The notes under the pieces are model-generated. The model made no database searches. It saw only the letters and a list, made by a program, of their open reading frames with translations, and was not told where the DNA came from. A stretch of DNA of 64,000 nt from Ectocarpus siliculosus (Eukaryota > Sar > Phaeophyceae > Ectocarpales > Ectocarpaceae): positions 397,751-461,750 of the forward strand of contig FN649149.1 in the NCBI GenBank assembly GCA_000310025.1, read 5' to 3'. Within the stretch, counting starts at the first letter, position 1, and each line of letters begins with the position of its first letter. Of the stretch, positions 7,011 to 40,900 are shown piece by piece. A program made the translations under genes and the position numbers.

Positions 7011-7620
7011 TATGTTGTGTGGGCCTAGGTACAATACACGACACAACGGAGGGATTCTCCCCGATATTTTGTCGTTGACCCAGTAGAGAACTACAGGGGA
7101 TGTATTGTAAAAATGTAAGTTACCTATACAGATGTTTTTGTACGCACCAGCTGGCATCACTGGTATAAATCATCAGTGTATAGCCTTAAAAGACTCGAAA
7201 TAAGTCCAGTACCCAGCCGGTTTCCCTCCACTCACTGAAAAGACTCCTCCACATCCCGTTCGACTGTGGGTATATCTCGAATATAGGTAGTCTTTCTGTG
7301 TGCGTTTTTATTATTCCTTCATTGTTTTCGCACAGGGGGAGTGGACACCGATCCGTGCCAAGACCGGCATCCTTACGGTAGATGGGTCAATGGTTGGAGT
7401 AGGGTATATACTGGGGGCGATGGGTGATTGTCTCTAGAGGTATTTTCTGTGGAAAAATCGCATGCGTGCGTCATTGTCGGCAAAAACGAGTGGACAGACA
7501 AATGGTAGATGTGCCCGATCGTTTGAATGAGGTATTCTTGAAAGGCGATGAATGAGCTAGTGCCAAGCAAAAGTATTCGAAAATATATGCCCAAATTTCG
7601 GACCTATGCCGTTGAACAAT

Positions 7621-7692
7621 TCCTTCGTAGTCCAATGGTTAGGACATATCGCTCTCACCGATGAGACCCGGGTTCAATTCCCGGCGAGGGAG
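7621..7692 (+). tRNA. tRNA-Glu (anticodon CUC)
   Basis: Seventy-two bases fold into a standard cloverleaf. The acceptor is TCCTTCG paired with CGAGGGA, with discriminator G. The D stem is GTCC/GGAC, the anticodon stem TATCG/CGATG with loop CTCTCAC (anticodon CTC), and the T arm CCGGG-TTCAATT-CCCGG. Internal A-box and B-box (GGTTCAATTCC) promoters are present. There is no intron, and CCA is not encoded, as expected for a eukaryotic nuclear tRNA gene. Confidence 0.93.
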
Positions 7693-7696
7693 TCTC

Positions 7697-31444: not shown

Positions 31445-33698
31445 GGCAAAGCCCGGTTGACTCCTTGTCTAGGCGCCACAGCAGCTTTGTCCTACAGTGG
31501 GGGGCCCTCAATAAGAACACCCGGCGAGTCGACCGGCGATATTCCGAGGGACCGGCGCTTTACAGGACCACCGGCGCTATTCAACCGGCGTTATTGTACC
31601 GACCGGTGTCTTCGGCCGGGAGTACCTACAATGCGCGACGAAAGGGTATTGTTTCCTCCGGGGTACGGGAGCACCGCAACACCGGGCTCAATGTCCGCAG
31701 TGCTCACGTGCTTGGGAGCCTCCGCCACGGCTCCCGCGAGCATAACAAGTCGCACTTTGCCATCGTGCTCTGTCCAACGATGCGATTGGTTCGCGGCAAT
31801 CCCCGGCAATGTCCCGGCGGGTCAAAGAGTAGCCCGTTTCGTCGTGTTGTCACTGCCCCAACAAGAGGCTCGTGTTTCGTCTGCCGGCCACTGCCAAGAT
31901 GCCATTAGTTGTGTTTTGCTTAATACCCATTTTTGTCGAGCTCCCGCTGCGAAATGCACTCACGGCGAGCGCGGGCGGGAGGGGGGGGGGGACGGGCAGT
32001 GTTGGATGTCACGGGTCGGAATTCGGGGTGCTTGTTGCACTGCGACCCTTGTTTCTGGCTAGAATATTAGGGGATTCCGCGGTGGGGATTGTGTCTGTCG
32101 TTTTGCGCTCGGGAAAGAAAGGCAAGCTGCACATGGCGACGGCGGGACAGCGAGTAAATATAGTTGCATGGTATTATTGTCGTATGTGCTTGAGGGAGTC
32201 GTGAAAAAAAAAAAAAGAGTCTTGTCTGAAGGATACACGACGCGCTTGCCTATGGGGGAAAACTGCTAACGTCGCTGTATCTAGATGCGTTTTTTGCTTC
32301 TCAGATGCTCTCTTGGTGTGTTAGCGAGCCTCTGGTGGGGGCTGGCGAGACAGTCTAATAGCGCAAAGTACGATCCATTTATTATAGGCTTTTGGGTGCG
32401 GTCATTTGTGTGTACCTTGCACTACCGGTGATAAGGTCGGTGTTGGTTATCTTTGTTGGTGGTGTCCGATGGCCTCAGTCGCTAGCTTTGCCCCAAGGGT
32501 GCAATATGTTGTCCCGCTGCTTGAACTTTGAGCTGCGACGAAAATGACTTGCCGTTATTCCAATAGCGCGCTGCGGTTGAGCTTCTCTTTCTCGTTGCCT
32601 TTGCAAGGCGGCGTTCTTCTGTGATGGGTCGGTGGATGGGATCGTCGATGATCTGTTCCACGCCGTCCGTTTGCGTTGTGTTTGCCTGTCCAGTGGTTGT
32701 CGGTGTTCGCCTGGGGAGTATGTCTCGCGCCGCGGGAGACGAGAGCTGTCCAGTCAGTGAACGACGGCTGGAACTCAGCAGTACATACCTTTACGTTTTT
32801 CGTGTCCTTTGATCTTCCTAGGACGTCGATGGCGGATCGACAGTTTCCGTCGTTGCGTAGCGTATACTTCGTTGGTGTGGTGATTGCTTTTCAAGCGTGT
32901 GGTCTCCGGCAGGGTGGTGGAGATGAATGTCTGTGTGTGGTGTGTGTTGGGGGGGGGGATAGGCTGTGTTGGCGAGTCGGCATTGGCTGGGATGCTGTCG
33001 ATTGTTGTCGGTGGCATCAAGTCAAGGCCATGGCCTTTTTTTCCTCAAAGAGTCGTGTTTATGTGTGAAGTTTATTACTCCTCGTTAACTTCGTCGTGCT
33101 TACGGGTGTCATAAGTCAGTCAGTGCATTGGAGTGTAAATTATCAACTACAATGACAGGGAGGGCAGGCCTGTGCCACAAGTTGGCGTTGCCTTGAACGT
33201 GCGGCTGGTTTGCCGGGAAAGGGTTGTGCATGCTCTTTTTTCACTGCCCCATGGAGAGTGGGTGGAAATCTAACGAGTACGAACGATTCGGGGGATGCAG
33301 TAGTTGGTCACAGGCAAGCAAGCGGAGGGGGTTGATCTACCCCTGGGACCACTACTGGAGATCCTCGAAATCGTTTTATGTGCATGATCTCACGGACACA
33401 CCCGAAGGCACAGACAGTCGACAGTTTCGACGAGAGAAGGAAGTGCCCCAGTACCTGTGGTGCCAGCGCATTCTGGGAGACTGCGACGGTTTCCATTTTG
33501 CACGCTTATCCATTCTAGGTCAAGAATTGACCGTACGCTCTGGAGATCGACAAAACACGCCTCACCATCAAATCGGATACAAAAATTTATTCTTCTTAAT
33601 TGTTTTTGGAGAGGACATATCCAAGGTTTTCGACGATTTTCTACGCCTTGTACAGGCTGCCGCAGCCAAAGCCTAATGACATCACCGCGCCCCTCCCT
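31445..33698. other. Convergent 3' region of sulfotransferase and acetyltransferase genes
   Basis: No gene is supported. A 150-codon open frame at 33224-33676 has no domain and overlaps the presumed 3' UTR of the minus-strand gene. The region probably consists of long 3' UTRs and spacer. Confidence 0.5.
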
Positions 33699-36600
33699 TC
33701 ACACTCCCATGTACAGCGAGCCGTAGTTGGAAAACAGCCGCCGCGGTTTCACCGTAGGCGTGCGTTCCTCCCCTTCCTCCTCCGCTGCCCCTTCCTCCAC
33801 ACCAACCGCTACGTCCTGATGCGGATCGCAAACGACCCAGGCGACGGTTTTCGACGGCACACCCCTGTTGATGGTGTACGGCTTGATGGGTTTCACAACC
33901 ACGGAGGCGGCCTCGATGCGGGAGCCCTGTCAACCGCGACAGAGGAGACGGGGGAGCGGAGTGAGGGGCAACACGTGGGAGACCCAACAGCTAGCTGTGG
34001 CTTTGGAAGGACGTTGGTGTGGCTACCAACAACGCGATTATCGGCAGCGGAACTAGCCACGCCGTTCTGTCGAGTCACTCCCTCAGTCGCTCTCGCCGAT
34101 CAATCGCTCTGGCGTCGAGACCCCACCGAAGGACCTTTGGCGGTTTTTGGTTGCTTTCTTGACCACTTGTGAACGCGAATATGTATGTCGCGTTATATGA
34201 TGTCTTGCCTTTAGATCGCGGGAACATAAGAGGAGGCGAAAGGGGTGCTGCTGCGGCTTCACCGGTTACAGTAAAGCGTCCCGAATCACGCGCAGCACAT
34301 TTTCGTTGACCGGTCAAGGTCGTCTTTCCGTCCTCTCGACAAAACTCCAAGCATAGTTTTCACTACAATAGAAGCGAGATACTACCTCGGTCAAACGATA
34401 TTGCTTTCACACAGACCGTCTCAGACTTTCGCGCTACCACACCAGAGCCTGAACGCGCACCAACACTATACCAGAGGACTCTTTGGGCACGACTGATAAT
34501 TTTTGCAGAGCAAGGTTTTAAATCCATGCTATCGTTTCATGGCGAAGCCAGCTCGGCCTAGGAAGACGGTAAGATATGAGGAAGGAGACTGATTTTGCGA
34601 AGGGCGAGTCACGCACAGGCTTGAAACAAAATCGAAACAAAGAGTGTCAAGCGCAACCAACCTTCATCCAAAAAAGACTAGCAGGGGAGGATTGACTTGG
34701 ATCCGACTCCAAAGTGGGCCACATCTCTGGACAAATCGACTCGGCTTCGACTCTTGTCTTCCTACGCTTGCTGCTCACCTCCCCCAAGGGAATGTTTCCA
34801 AGGATAGAAGAACCCACACCGATGTGGCATCCCTTGCCGACTTTGGGGTGCCTGTTCCCAGTCTGATTTCCCGTACCCCCCAAAGTCACGCCCTGCAGAA
34901 TACAAACGCCGTCCCCGACCATTGCAGTCTCGCCGATAACTGTCATGTCAGGTTCGAGCGGCGACGGGGCGGGCATCGCGTTGGTGGGGCACCGCCAAGT
35001 CAATCACTGCAACGCACCGCCTTTCCTTTTCTCTAAGAGCGTAGACTTCTCGCTAGTTTCTGCTTGCCACCGACTTGACGTACTACCACTGTGAATAGAG
35101 GAAGTCGGCAGAAGGCAATGATGGTGCGTGCTACGAACGATCATCGCATCGTACGGAACGCCGTACCTATGTCGCAGCCGCCGGCCATGAGGATCCCTTT
35201 GCCTATTGTAGACGCCGGGTGGATGTCCGCGGCACACACCTGCAAGAACGGACAACAAGCCGAAATACACGCAACGTTCCCATCATTCACATGCATTGGC
35301 GATGTCAACGCTAGCCATCGATAGTAAATCAAATCGAATGAGGAGACGAACCAGCGCGTGCAATGCAAAATGCCACAGACCTGTTCACGAGAGGTGAAGA
35401 ACATAGTGGCCTGGCTGGCAGGGGAAAGGCAAAGTCATCCTGTCCGGAATGGCCTTCGACCACACCCAAACACCAAGTACTTGGCACAAGGCATGCCACA
35501 CCATGCCCTATGCAAAAACAACTGACCACATGCACATACGAGCGTCGCGTGCTACCTCATGTGTACGGATGACTGAAGGCCCTGAGCAGAGATTGCCACC
35601 GTTTTCAATGCGGCGACGATACCAAAACCGTGCCGATACTGCTGCAAGCCGCTAAACAAACCGTTGTTTTGGACACGAATCTGTGGCCGGCCACCGTGAT
35701 ACCAGAGACTTTTGAAACTCTCGTGGGAGGGGACTTCGTCTCATGGCCATGGCAATTTCCCATGGCATTGACAGCGAAGAACCCGAGCATGTACGAAGAA
35801 ATGGTGCAACTCCGCGAACAAGTTTTTACCCGCTTGATCCTGTAGTCGGCATCTCGAGACACACCTCAGAGCAAATCGATTGCAGATACCGGGCCAGGTT
35901 GTGCCTGTCTCTTCTCCACAGCCAGTTCATCAGCCGGTAGGTCGTCAGAGCCGTGAATCCCTTGTGGAAGAGCATCGCCGTGAGCACGTCGGGCAAGGAC
36001 GTGTCCTGCATGGCATGGGCCAGCAGATCCTCTGCAACAACGAAGTCCAACAGCGGCTCGTCCGCGTACATGTCACTCATCAAAGACCTCACCTGTCAAC
36101 GTGTACAGCAGTATAGCCAGGTGTAAGGTTGCTGTCCGGCTGGGTGACTGTACGTGACGACTACGACGGACCGATTCGGCAGAGGGTTCCAAAGGGCAAA
36201 ACTTTCGCTTCTGGGGGCGCCCAGTGTAACACCCAAGAGGGCCCGGAAGGTATAAGGTTGCTCCAGAGTATCACGTCCGTAGACGTACAGAGTACCTTTA
36301 TTAAGCGAAGCGGAAGAACTTATTACCACGGTCGATACGAATCTCGAGATCGACAGGACAATCATGGAGGCGGTCCAGCCGTGGTGCACACCTTTACACG
36401 GAAAGACTCGCGGCATCGTAGAACGAATGGAGAGCGCGAAACAGCGGCAACCCTAGGGCTACAGACGACACAATAAAATACCTCTGTCGGCGACAGGAAG
36501 GTGGTGGCCATCTTGTCGGCGACATCGCACGAAACGGCGTCTTCCAACGAAGTGCGAGCCAGTACCGAGCCGTGTAGCATGGACGATACGTGCGACTGCT

Positions 36601-37666
36601 TCGACGCCTCTCGGCCCTGTGTACCGGATGGATGGATGGATGGATAGATTGTGAGTTTGTGTGATCCGTGTGCATGCTTTCACGAGGCTGAGAGCGGTGC
36701 GGTCACGGTCCTCGAGAAACGACTTACCCCTGAACATCACTATACTGCACATAACTATAACTATGCTTTGATACCGTTTTGACTGACGTTCTGTGGCGAA
36801 GCGACGAATTGTTTCATATTTCTCATGTTACAGATGTATTTGAAGCAGAGCTACCAGCCGTTCGTTGTGAACAGAGTGGTGCTGTTGTTGCGTGCGCTTG
36901 TCATGAATGCGACAATTCAAACGGGGAGTGGTCTGCATGACGATGGAGATAGACGGCAGCACGCGACGCTCTGTTCAAGGAATGCATGGACTAAGGGCAC
37001 CAAGGAATCGCGTAGTCTACAAAATTCTCCCATGCCACACACCTCGAAGCGGACCAACTCCCAGAGAGGGTTCTCCGAGACTTCAAGCAGCTTCACCAGA
37101 TCCACCAGCGAGTGTACTCTTGGATCCTGGCGTTCGCCGCCTCCACCGCTACCATCACCCCTTCCCTCGACTGCTGTCCCGCCAGACCACCGCGGCTTGG
37201 CCTTGATGTCGATAGAACCTGAAGTGCTCGAGCCAGCGGCGGTGGAGGTGCCCGCTTCGGCGACATCGTCGTCATGATCTGTTCTCGCATTGGCAATGAT
37301 GAGTCTCTGCTCCGATGAACGCGTGCTCCGTACGCCCTGACCACCTCGCAGTAGCCATGGCCATGACGATACTGATGCCGATGACCACGCCCTTGTTCCT
37401 GCCCCAGGTCCTGCAATCAGAGCCGCCGTGCGACTGCTGCTTCGTCTGCTGTGCACATGTTCAAGGACGTTGCTTTCCGTCGCGCCTGGAGGGACGGACA
37501 GCAGCAGCAGCGCTACCACACAAGTTAGTGCTCGTCGTCGTCGTCGTCGTCGTCGTCGTCCAGGAGGAAGCATCCTCCCGCAGCAGCAAACGTTGGGTTG
37601 ATGGAGGTCCCGAGGCCGCTGAGATAGAGCAGAGAGAAAGGGAGAGCTGCGCCGTGTAAAGAGCAC
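33699..37666 (-). CDS. Serine acetyltransferase-like protein, 482 aa, catalytic His absent
   Basis: Six exons join in phase: 37666-37043, 36616-36482, 36092-35865, 35239-35167, 34939-34779 and 33926-33699. The N-terminal 195 residues are an extension with an Arg9 run and a hydrophobic segment (ALTCVVALLLLSVP), probably a targeting signal. The SAT N-terminal helical domain follows (NPLWELVRFE, LARTSLEDAVS, GFTALTTYRLMNWLWRR). Then comes the left-handed beta-helix with DIHPASTIGKG, VIGETAMVGDG, GVTLGGTG, RHPKVGKG and ILGNIPLGE. Aligned to E. coli CysE without gaps, Asp143, Arg192 and His193 are kept (334, 383, 384). The catalytic pair Asp157-His158 is Ala348-Gly349. The C-terminus is an acidic extension ending GSLYMGV rather than the terminal Ile that binds the sulfhydrylase. 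Fold membership is secure; cysteine-pathway activity is doubtful. Start could be a later Met at about 37573. Confidence 0.82.
37533..37560. repeat. Coding (GTC)n microsatellite
   Basis: About nine GTC triplets on the plus strand read as an Arg9 run (CGA codons) on the minus strand, just before the hydrophobic segment of the acetyltransferase-like protein. The length is likely to vary between individuals. Confidence 0.8.
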
Positions 37667-37900
37667 AGCACTTCCTACTTGCTCCGCCTCGGAGTGCGGC
37701 GTAATGTGGGGGGGGTACGCGAATTCTGCCCGGGGTTGCCTAGTACCACTTGCGTCGCCGCTGTCCTCCCCTTACTCGAAAAATGCCTCTGTCCAGCCGC
37801 CTGCTGTGGTCTCTCTTCGGAACACACAGGCACGCATCATCGACCTTTCGTCTCTCTCCCGGCAGTAGCGTACGTCCCGGACACAGCACACATAGCAATC
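37667..37900. promoter_or_regulatory. Divergent promoter region, 234 bp
   Basis: This is the whole space between the start codons of the acetyltransferase-like gene (minus) and the V-ATPase subunit c gene (plus). Both 5' UTRs and both core promoters must fit here unless an upstream non-coding exon exists. No TATA-like box is obvious. Confidence 0.45.
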
Positions 37901-40900
37901 ATGGAGACATGTCCTTCCTCGGCGGCCTTCTTCGGCTTCATGGGCGTTGCTTCGTCCATGGTTTTCGGAAGTGAGTGGTGGTTTTGGCGCAGAGATAGTG
38001 ACCGAACATATTTGCAGCACAATCGATGCCAGCGAGACGGAGAGAGAGATAGAGAACAGGGACGGGCGTTCACCGCTAGAGATAAAACTGCGGAGACGAG
38101 TTCTGCCTCGCTTGTGCCTCGAGATTTGGCCGTGCTTGGGAATGCCATCCAACTCCCCAGGTTTGGGCACGGTGTTGAACGCGTCGAACACGAGATTCAG
38201 AGCCCGCAGAACGTTGTTGCGCGGCTCGCATTTTCAGCCCGTCTTCTGGATCACCGTCACACCAGAGCACACAATAACCCCATCTAGGTTGCCAGCGGTA
38301 GTTACGCATCGAGACCGCTCTGTGCAAACTCCATTGCAGAGGGGGTCACACACCGAGTGCTAATTACTTACGTTCGCTGTACAAATTATTGGCTTGTGTT
38401 GGGCTACGCTTCTGAGTCCATCCGAACCGTTTGGGGCGCCAACGCTGGCAGCTCGTGTTTTTTGGTCAGCACACGGCACGCAGCAGTAGGGAAGAACTTT
38501 TGTGCGCTGCGTTCGCTGGTCCTGCAGAAGCACTGAAACAAGTTTGCATTGGTTCTCTCTCCGCTCTGCTATTAGTCCGGTCTGCCGCCTAGCCAGCTTG
38601 TCGTTTGCAGGCGTTGGTTCGAGAAAGTTCCGAACGTCACAGGAAATCCTGTGTCTCTGTTTTACCGCTCTCGATATGCGGATGCATATGGGTGCATTTC
38701 TTAGACATACCAGTACAATATATTTCGTCACTTTGGTCTACACGAGGAACACGACAACACACAACGGAGCGGCGCAAAGTAGGTGTGCAGCGCCACCAAA
38801 AAATTTAAGCTGCTCTGGGCTCGCGCCTCAAATCTGGCTGGTGTTGCTGAAGTGGTTGTGCTTTGCCGCTCTCGTGAGCCTCATGTACGAGATGTTGGGG
38901 GGATTTGTCCAGCTCCGTAAACTACTCTGTAGCGTAGACACGTCAGTTGCACTGCCTGTTGCAGAGCCTGCAATCTCAAATGGCTTCGCGTTGTGAGTAC
39001 ATGTACTCAATGGCTTCGTTGGTCGCAACGAGCCTAGCGGTGTTGATGGGATCATTCGCTTGGAATGTTTATCTCTACTGCTGTGTCATTTGGAGGTTCA
39101 AAATCCTTCATTGTACCTCAGAGATATCATACCGGATGTAGTTGGGTACCACCGTGTCGCTACACAGCAGTTATCGTACAATCTTGTTACAAAAGTAGCC
39201 CCTTTTTGAGGTTACACACAACGTTGTCATCATCAGGTCTGTTCGTCCACAAGCACACCCGATCCGTTTGTCCTTGAAAGGGTTCCGGTATTACGGTGAC
39301 TCGCCGCGGTGCAGTGTCCAAGTTCACCTTGTGAAGATTTGTTCTGTGTTGCGCCTCTGCTGCCGTGTGATGCGGTCTTGTGCACAAACGTTTGACGGAA
39401 TTTCATTTGTCGCTTGATAGTTAACCTGGCATGGCTCGTGTTGTGCCACTGCCGGGGCTTCGGTGATCGCAATAACTTTGTGGACAATTTGAACATGCTT
39501 GCAAGCAACAGCACGCGAAAACTGCGGTTCAAACCCCAGTGCGATTCGTACCTTGAGTTGGTATGTTGCCAGGCATGTCGATATTTTTACGGTTGCCTGC
39601 CGGCACTCTTATGTTTCTTTACTGCAGGTTTACTGAAATGGTCAGTGTCTTGCTTGCCACCAGTGTCAAGCGGCTCGTCCCTGTACGGGATCAATGAAAA
39701 GCTCTCAATAACATACTGACTGTACTTGTGCTCCACACGGGTAGCACTGCTGTAGCTCCATGCTTTCAAGCCACCTCCTCGCCAGATCCCTCTCGCAACG
39801 CTAACACTTGGACAGCGTTTCTGGGAATGCCATATGTGTGTTGGGTGTTGGTACAGTAGCATTCTCCGCGATAGGGAAGAGAACGTCGCACCGCTTTTAG
39901 CGTTTCTGCCGCAAACGCCCCTCTTGAGTGTTAGAAACCAAGATCCTAAACCTCCCTCGTTGCCTGTCCTGTCCGCCTCCTGCCCGCATCTGTAACGATC
40001 CTTGGAACGGCACCACCAATGGAAAACAGACATCGGCGCCGCTTACGGAACCGCCAAGTCTGGCGTGGGTATCTCCTCGATGGGTGTGATGAACCCCGGA
40101 CTCGTCATGCGTAACATCATCCCCGTGGTTATGGCTGGTGTGCTGGGCATCTACGGTCTTATCGTGGCGGTTATCCTCTCGGGAGCAAGTGAGTACAGTA
40201 GGAAGGGAGCCGGCTTCGGTTTCACAGCAGTTGCGGCAGCGGCGCTACTTTTCAGGGCAAGACACGCTTTGTTTCGCTTGTTCCCCCGCGCGAAAAGTGG
40301 ATCCAGGTGTAGGGTTGTAGAGGTTTGGTGGCTGGCAGTTCTAGTAGCAGGTTCTTTCGACGATAGCGGTGTGTTCCGGACTTATGTCGTTCCAGATTCT
40401 CTTCTAGTGTGCTGTTAGTGTTCCCGGCCGGTAGCATGTGCATCCATGTCGTGGTGGGCGGAGACAAACTCGGCAAGTTCGTGTCCGACCAGCGTGAATT
40501 CTCCCTCTCGTAACCCAGAGACCGATAGCGATGTGACGTCTGCTCCCAACCCCCGACCTTTGGTCGTTAAGAAGCGAGTTTCAACGCGGTCTTGGGCATG
40601 TTTTGTAACGACAAGGGAAGGGTTTCTATCGTCAACGTAGCCTCTGCGGGCAGGTGGGCACATCTTGCGTCCCAGTTGCGACAAACGGTCGTTTCGAGTG
40701 GACTTATCGTGAACTTTTGTTGGGCTGGCCGACATACGGGTGACTCAAAGTGTCCGTGTTTCATACCCGTACATCGTGTTCGAGATACTGTTTGATCTCC
40801 AATTCCACGCGGCGGGGCGCCGTAGACAAGACGCTGACCGAATGCTGTAGGGTGTTCCCGCTCATTGGGTCGACAGCGCTCGGACCCTTCCCTTGACACA

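Follow-up and report, generated by a model that had tools for sequence, protein, structure and literature searches.

Serine acetyltransferases (SATs) catalyse the opening step of cysteine synthesis. In SATs, His158 is the general base, with Asp143 assisting, and the active sites lie between neighbouring subunits, according to excerpts of PMC8786284, PMC13256707 and PMC9547175. The N. gonorrhoeae SAT has one subunit that gives Asp96, Asp161 and His162, while the next gives Asp147, Glu170, Arg196 and His197 (excerpt of PMC8786284), and Gln178 and Gly190 are also named for the SAT site in an excerpt of PMC9547175. Thalassiosira pseudonana has three SAT genes and Phaeodactylum tricornutum has one, with no inactive SAT mentioned in the excerpt of PMC3901274, and a red-algal SAT phylogeny is mentioned in an excerpt of PMC3777023. 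A search of the open-licence literature by title or abstract found no description of a SAT without the catalytic His, which is weak evidence of absence. The left-handed beta-helix is the fold class of the gamma-carbonic anhydrases. In the gamma-carbonic-anhydrase domain of plant complex I, the CAL subunit is without two of the three zinc-binding His residues (excerpt of PMC7447434).

Here we describe a SAT-like gene of Ectocarpus siliculosus whose product has Ala-Gly where other SATs have their catalytic Asp-His. The window is the whole stretch of DNA that was analysed, 64,000 nucleotides of contig FN649149.1, and positions are those of the window unless another contig is named. The genome searched was an assembly of 189 Mb in 492 contigs, and the gene structure is eukaryotic.

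Gene structure and protein model

The SAT-like gene was modelled on the minus strand (37573-33699) as a spliced gene of six exons, with 451 codons and a stop, and all five of its introns have GT-AG borders. Its features are as follows.

Exon 1, 37043..37573, minus strand: Arg-rich and hydrophobic N-terminal extension, low-complexity linker, and start of the SAT N-terminal domain at about residue 170
Exon 2, 36482..36616, minus strand: SAT helical N-terminal domain; placed by GT-AG borders, kept frame and homology
Exon 3, 35865..36092, minus strand: end of the helical domain with D252 (E. coli Asp92), and start of the beta-helix; placed by homology
Exon 4, 35167..35239, minus strand: beta-helix coil; D303 (Asp143) kept, Ala317-Gly318 at Asp157-His158
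Codons GCC GGC (Ala317, Gly318), 35180..35185, minus strand: place of the catalytic Asp-His pair
Exon 5, 34779..34939, minus strand: E326, Q338, G350, R352 and H353 kept (E. coli Glu166, Gln178, Gly190, Arg192 and His193)
Exon 6, 33699..33926, minus strand: last beta-helix coils, acidic tail and stop codon; end without Ile

The architecture of a SATase_N domain followed by a hexapeptide beta-helix is present. The Pfam model PF06426 (SATase_N) matched from residue 170 with 58.5 bits against a cut-off of 21, the PF00132 hexapeptide model gave 23.4 bits, below its cut-off of 27, and solved SATs align through the beta-helix. Exon 6 completes the beta-helix, and the acidic tail that follows terminates in SLYMGV; an earlier note on this DNA, made from the letters alone, had likewise reported an acidic C-terminal extension and no terminal Ile. 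Its description of a hydrophobic N-terminal extension with a run of nine Arg residues holds in part: the sequence does contain the Arg9 run, though within a trinucleotide repeat, and up to about residue 170 the model has the open frame as its sole support, without homology.

A plus-strand gene (37901-40200) lies head to head with the SAT-like gene and starts approximately 330 bases from its start, and the stretch 40020-40200 (+) of this neighbour matches ATP-synt_C (E 1.8e-13). The presumed first exon of this ATPase gene had no Pfam match; a 23-residue segment at 37901 (+) bears what we take to be a resemblance to the start of V-ATPase subunit c. The only tRNA called by ARAGORN in the window was a tRNA-Glu (CTC) at 7620-7694 (+).

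Loss of the catalytic Asp-His pair

Twenty-four distinct solved sequences matched the domain at E ≤0.001, and 22 of them are named SATs. The solved SATs matched the domain end to end; the best was Vibrio 4h7o (E 8.7e-54), and E. coli 1t3d matched with E 1.8e-50 (residues 10-229 against 42-261). Over the domain, the alignment to solved SATs is gap-free but for a single position, close to the start, in 4h7o. Spliced across the exon 4/5 junction, the window protein reads ADIHPASTIGKGILM-AG-GCDIVIGETA, and the segment GILM-AG-GCDIVIGETA stands against DIHPAA.IG.GIML-DH-ATGIV.GETA in the solved SATs, which places Ala317-Gly318 at Asp157-His158 (E. coli numbering). The earlier note had described a SAT-like protein without Asp-His at 35167..35239, and this interval is exon 4. 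The two replacing residues were named correctly there, but they had been numbered Ala348-Gly349 and stand at positions 317-318 of 451 here, the two models differing by 31 residues upstream.

The other mapped published active-site residues are present, with D92, D143, E166, R192 and H193 found as D252, D303, E326, R352 and H353 (the equivalents of Asp143, Arg192 and His193 had already been recognised as kept), and with Gln178 and Gly190 kept as Q338 and G350. When 156 is added to the N. gonorrhoeae numbering, D252, A317 and G318 fall on one face of the site and D303, E326, R352 and H353 on the other, so that the second face keeps its full set of four residues while the first has lost the catalytic pair. 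Further changes lie close to the site: the substrate loop RDPA reads QDTS, and GDRHPK reads GNRHPK. At least three base changes separate GCC GGC from Asp-His codons, and the neighbouring residues are altered too; one base-call error therefore cannot explain the Ala-Gly.

The beta-helix of the window protein also contains three Cys residues, 320, 335 and 360 (35174-35176, 34902-34904 and 34827-34829, minus strand), which replace the usual Thr/His, Ser and Val, respectively. Cys at position 360 was found in one of 271 homologue rows. These residues may form a metal or redox site, or may have arisen by chance.

Conservation across homologues

Homologues were retrieved with patterns that lacked the DH motif (80 + 35 loci), and further homologues were taken from six genomes, four bacterial phyla and 39 lower-scoring or second-copy regions, the last of these being added to a sample that is biased to good matches, as it was built from the top matches of the individual searches. 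A protein row was obtained from each of the 276 loci, and after two SATs of the same genome had been added and identical rows removed, 271 homologue rows remained, which are not 271 independent genes, since some genes entered twice with different borders.

His158 is kept in 271/271 homologue rows and Asp157 in 269/271. The two rows without Asp (L303 and L311) both retain the His, and they score as distant relatives. No bacterial relative without DH was found among the 271 rows, and no DH-less relative was found on viral contigs, where all 35 loci carry DH. The window protein keeps 18 of the 21 columns that are conserved at ≥98%, and the three lost are D157, H158 and V200 (window positions 317, 318 and 360). 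In the first set of homologues DH is present in 117/117 rows, and 23 columns are identical in all covering rows; the window protein keeps 21 of these and loses only the Asp-His pair. Sixty-five columns of the first set are conserved at ≥95%, with 47 kept and 18 lost. In a quick tree with SH-aLRT support only, the window protein is the longest tip among 177 rows, at 2.83 where the median is 0.24, and its placement is unsure owing to this long branch.

As judged from the sequence, the general observation that the SAT domain is intact and the Asp-His pair gone is correct, and it exceeds a chance substitution, since it is the catalytic pair in particular that is lost.

Other SAT-like genes in the genome

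The genome carries at least four more SAT-like genes with Asp-His in place: one on contig C2 (DHATG), one on C102 (DHGTG) and two on C25 (DHGAA). The gene model on C102 terminates in Ile. With the TIGR01172 cysE equivalog model (cut-off 210.65 bits), the C102 protein passes at 218.6 bits, the C2 protein falls just below at 202.1 and the window protein is below at 162.5; with the EpsC model the window protein scored 133.6 bits against a cut-off of 150. Over the SAT domain, the window protein is 36% identical to the C102 protein and 35% to the C2 protein, and the tree joins the C102 SAT to soybean SAT (support 84). Provided that the genes on C102 and C2 are active, O-acetylserine would be made independently of the window gene.

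Recent duplication of another SAT of the same genome is unsupported as the origin of the window gene, given the 35-36% identity to C2 and C102 against up to 45% in the best bacterial SATs, although the long branch leaves its placement in the quick tree unsure.

The two SAT-like genes on C25 (L033 and L034) are near-identical, lie approximately 6 kb apart in opposite orientation, and read IDHGAA at the pair. Downstream of the C102 SAT (L011, C102:123500-132500) lies a run of N that is flanked by poor-looking repetitive sequence.

Decayed copies and selection

Contigs C330 (L031, 8001-18000) and C21 (L032, 2597001-2607000) each carry a segmental copy of the gene's 3' half together with downstream sequence. 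Both copies begin approximately 10 bases before exon 5 and hold exons 5 and 6, and neither showed a match to exons 1-4. The copies are approximately 82-83% identical to the window and approximately 95-97% identical to each other. They have two frameshifting deletions of exon 5 in common, of 2 and 11 bases, and in exon 6 the C21 copy has three insertions (3, 1 and 1 bases) and the C330 copy none.

The window copy keeps an open frame. Its 705-base domain and ten splice sites carry neither a frameshift nor a stop nor a splice lesion, against a neutral expectation of 6.4 disabling changes (P 0.0016). In this test intron 5 served as the neutral yardstick, half of the divergence was given to the window branch (equal rates assumed), and 70% of indels were taken as frameshifting; in the comparison with C330, 11 of 12 intron 5 indels shift the frame. 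The exons also differ less than the intron. Between the window and C330 there are 27 differences in the 376 positions of exons 5 and 6 and 123 in the 831 of intron 5 (P 1.5e-4), and the corresponding counts for C21 are 30/376 and 123/831 (P 7.5e-4). From the lack of lesions and the slower exons we infer that the frame was guarded after duplication, at least until recently.

The pN/pS of the window copy was 1.14 against C330 and 0.91 against C21, values to which the free branches of the copies contribute along with the branch of the window gene. The slowness of the exons calls for more than amino-acid constraint, as synonymous sites also changed slowly (pS 0.064 and 0.085, compared with 0.148 in the intron). 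Among the changes common to both copies in the aligned core, four polarise to the copies and one to the window gene, with two undecided, which are too few to test. Strong purifying selection by dN/dS is unsupported, with pN/pS at about 1.

Interpretation

We lean slightly towards the view that the gene encodes a SAT-derived pseudoenzyme, in which the SAT fold would be complete while the general base His158 has been lost together with Asp157. At the level of the sequence, a catalytic residue is lost and the fold is kept, the combination that marks a pseudoenzyme. In its favour are the replacement of Asp-His at a near-invariant site, the scaffold (18/21 columns), the intact frame, and the DH of the other SATs; against a maintained pseudoenzyme, the pN/pS values of 1.14 and 0.91 and the longest tip fit relaxed selection as well. 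Without His158 and Asp157 the known route to O-acetylserine should be closed, and the protein would then be kept for a role other than catalysis, the likeliest being that of a SAT-oligomer subunit or of a serine/cysteine-responsive binding protein acting on the true SATs as a modulator. The earlier note had offered a pseudoenzyme, a regulator or an acetyltransferase with a different substrate, and the first two fit best, any regulatory role of the window protein being putative. In view of the retained D92, D143, E166, R192 and H193, some activity could remain. By extension of the CAL precedent of a dead subunit to the SATs, it is conceivable, if quite unlikely, that the window protein acts within mixed SAT trimers as a half-site subunit, which would complete the site of its partner on one side and form a dead site on the other; such a trimer could tune O-acetylserine output or cysteine feedback.

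The main competitor of a maintained pseudoenzyme is that selection no longer acts on the gene, function having been lost recently with a frame that has survived so far. A pN/pS of about 1 against the decayed copies, a tip longer than any other among the 177 rows, and changes at 18 of the 65 columns conserved at ≥95% all point this way, but zero lesions where 6.4 are expected since duplication (P 0.0016, with equal branch rates and 70% frameshifting assumed) and a loss confined to the Asp-His pair among the identical columns of the first set speak against it, and we regard it as rather unlikely. We consider it unlikely that the protein works as an acyltransferase on another substrate or through another base, such as His353 (E. 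coli His193), or Cys320/Asp321, which stand two and three residues past the lost His. The equivalents of D92, D143, E166, R192 and H193 are kept, and the new Cys residues at 320, 335 and 360 in the beta-helix would suit such a change; nevertheless, His158 is retained even in the two Asp-less rows, which score as distant relatives, the substrate loop RDPA has become QDTS, and no known precedent for such a base swap was found. With the general base gone and further near-invariant residues changed, the data favour a putative pseudoenzyme over a different acetyltransferase.

The earlier note had named an alternative exon that restores Asp-His, or a sequencing error, as what would undo its claim, and neither finds support. 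The Ala-Gly is read from one assembly, and in principle an unseen exon 4 or an assembly error could conceal an Asp-His pair, but this is very improbable. The two codons need at least three substitutions, which no single-base error could supply, and their neighbours are changed; exon 4 is flanked by GT-AG on both sides and its frame continues the fold; and the exon 3-4 stretch has a single match in the genome, namely itself. The minus-strand frames of 33600-37800 contain no Asp-His in a beta-helix context, a search which a junction-split pair would escape, and the three DH pairs that do occur in these frames all lie elsewhere, in exon 1 or in introns.

This is a finding from a single genome. 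If expressed and conserved, the gene would represent a SAT-family pseudoenzyme and a natural probe of the control of cysteine synthesis in this lineage, and the kept half-site allows a clear and cheap biochemical test.

Comparison with known systems

The window protein resembles the CysE/SAT family (PF06426, TIGR01172; 4h7o, 1t3d and soybean 4n69) in having the same two-domain sequence, alignable nearly without gaps, and in keeping the substrate-side residues D92, D143, E166, R192 and H193. It differs from this family in the Ala-Gly at Asp157-His158, in its score (162.5 bits against the cut-off of 210.65), and in being without the C-terminal Ile for sulfhydrylase binding, a feature that is not universal among SATs. 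CAL of plant complex I belongs to another family, has a zinc site and is proven by structure; for the window protein, it is the residue pattern that is compatible with such a subunit. The likeness lies in the kind of change: CAL is a beta-helix subunit that has lost residues of an inter-subunit active site and takes its place in a mixed trimer (excerpt of PMC7447434), as the window protein might do among the SATs.
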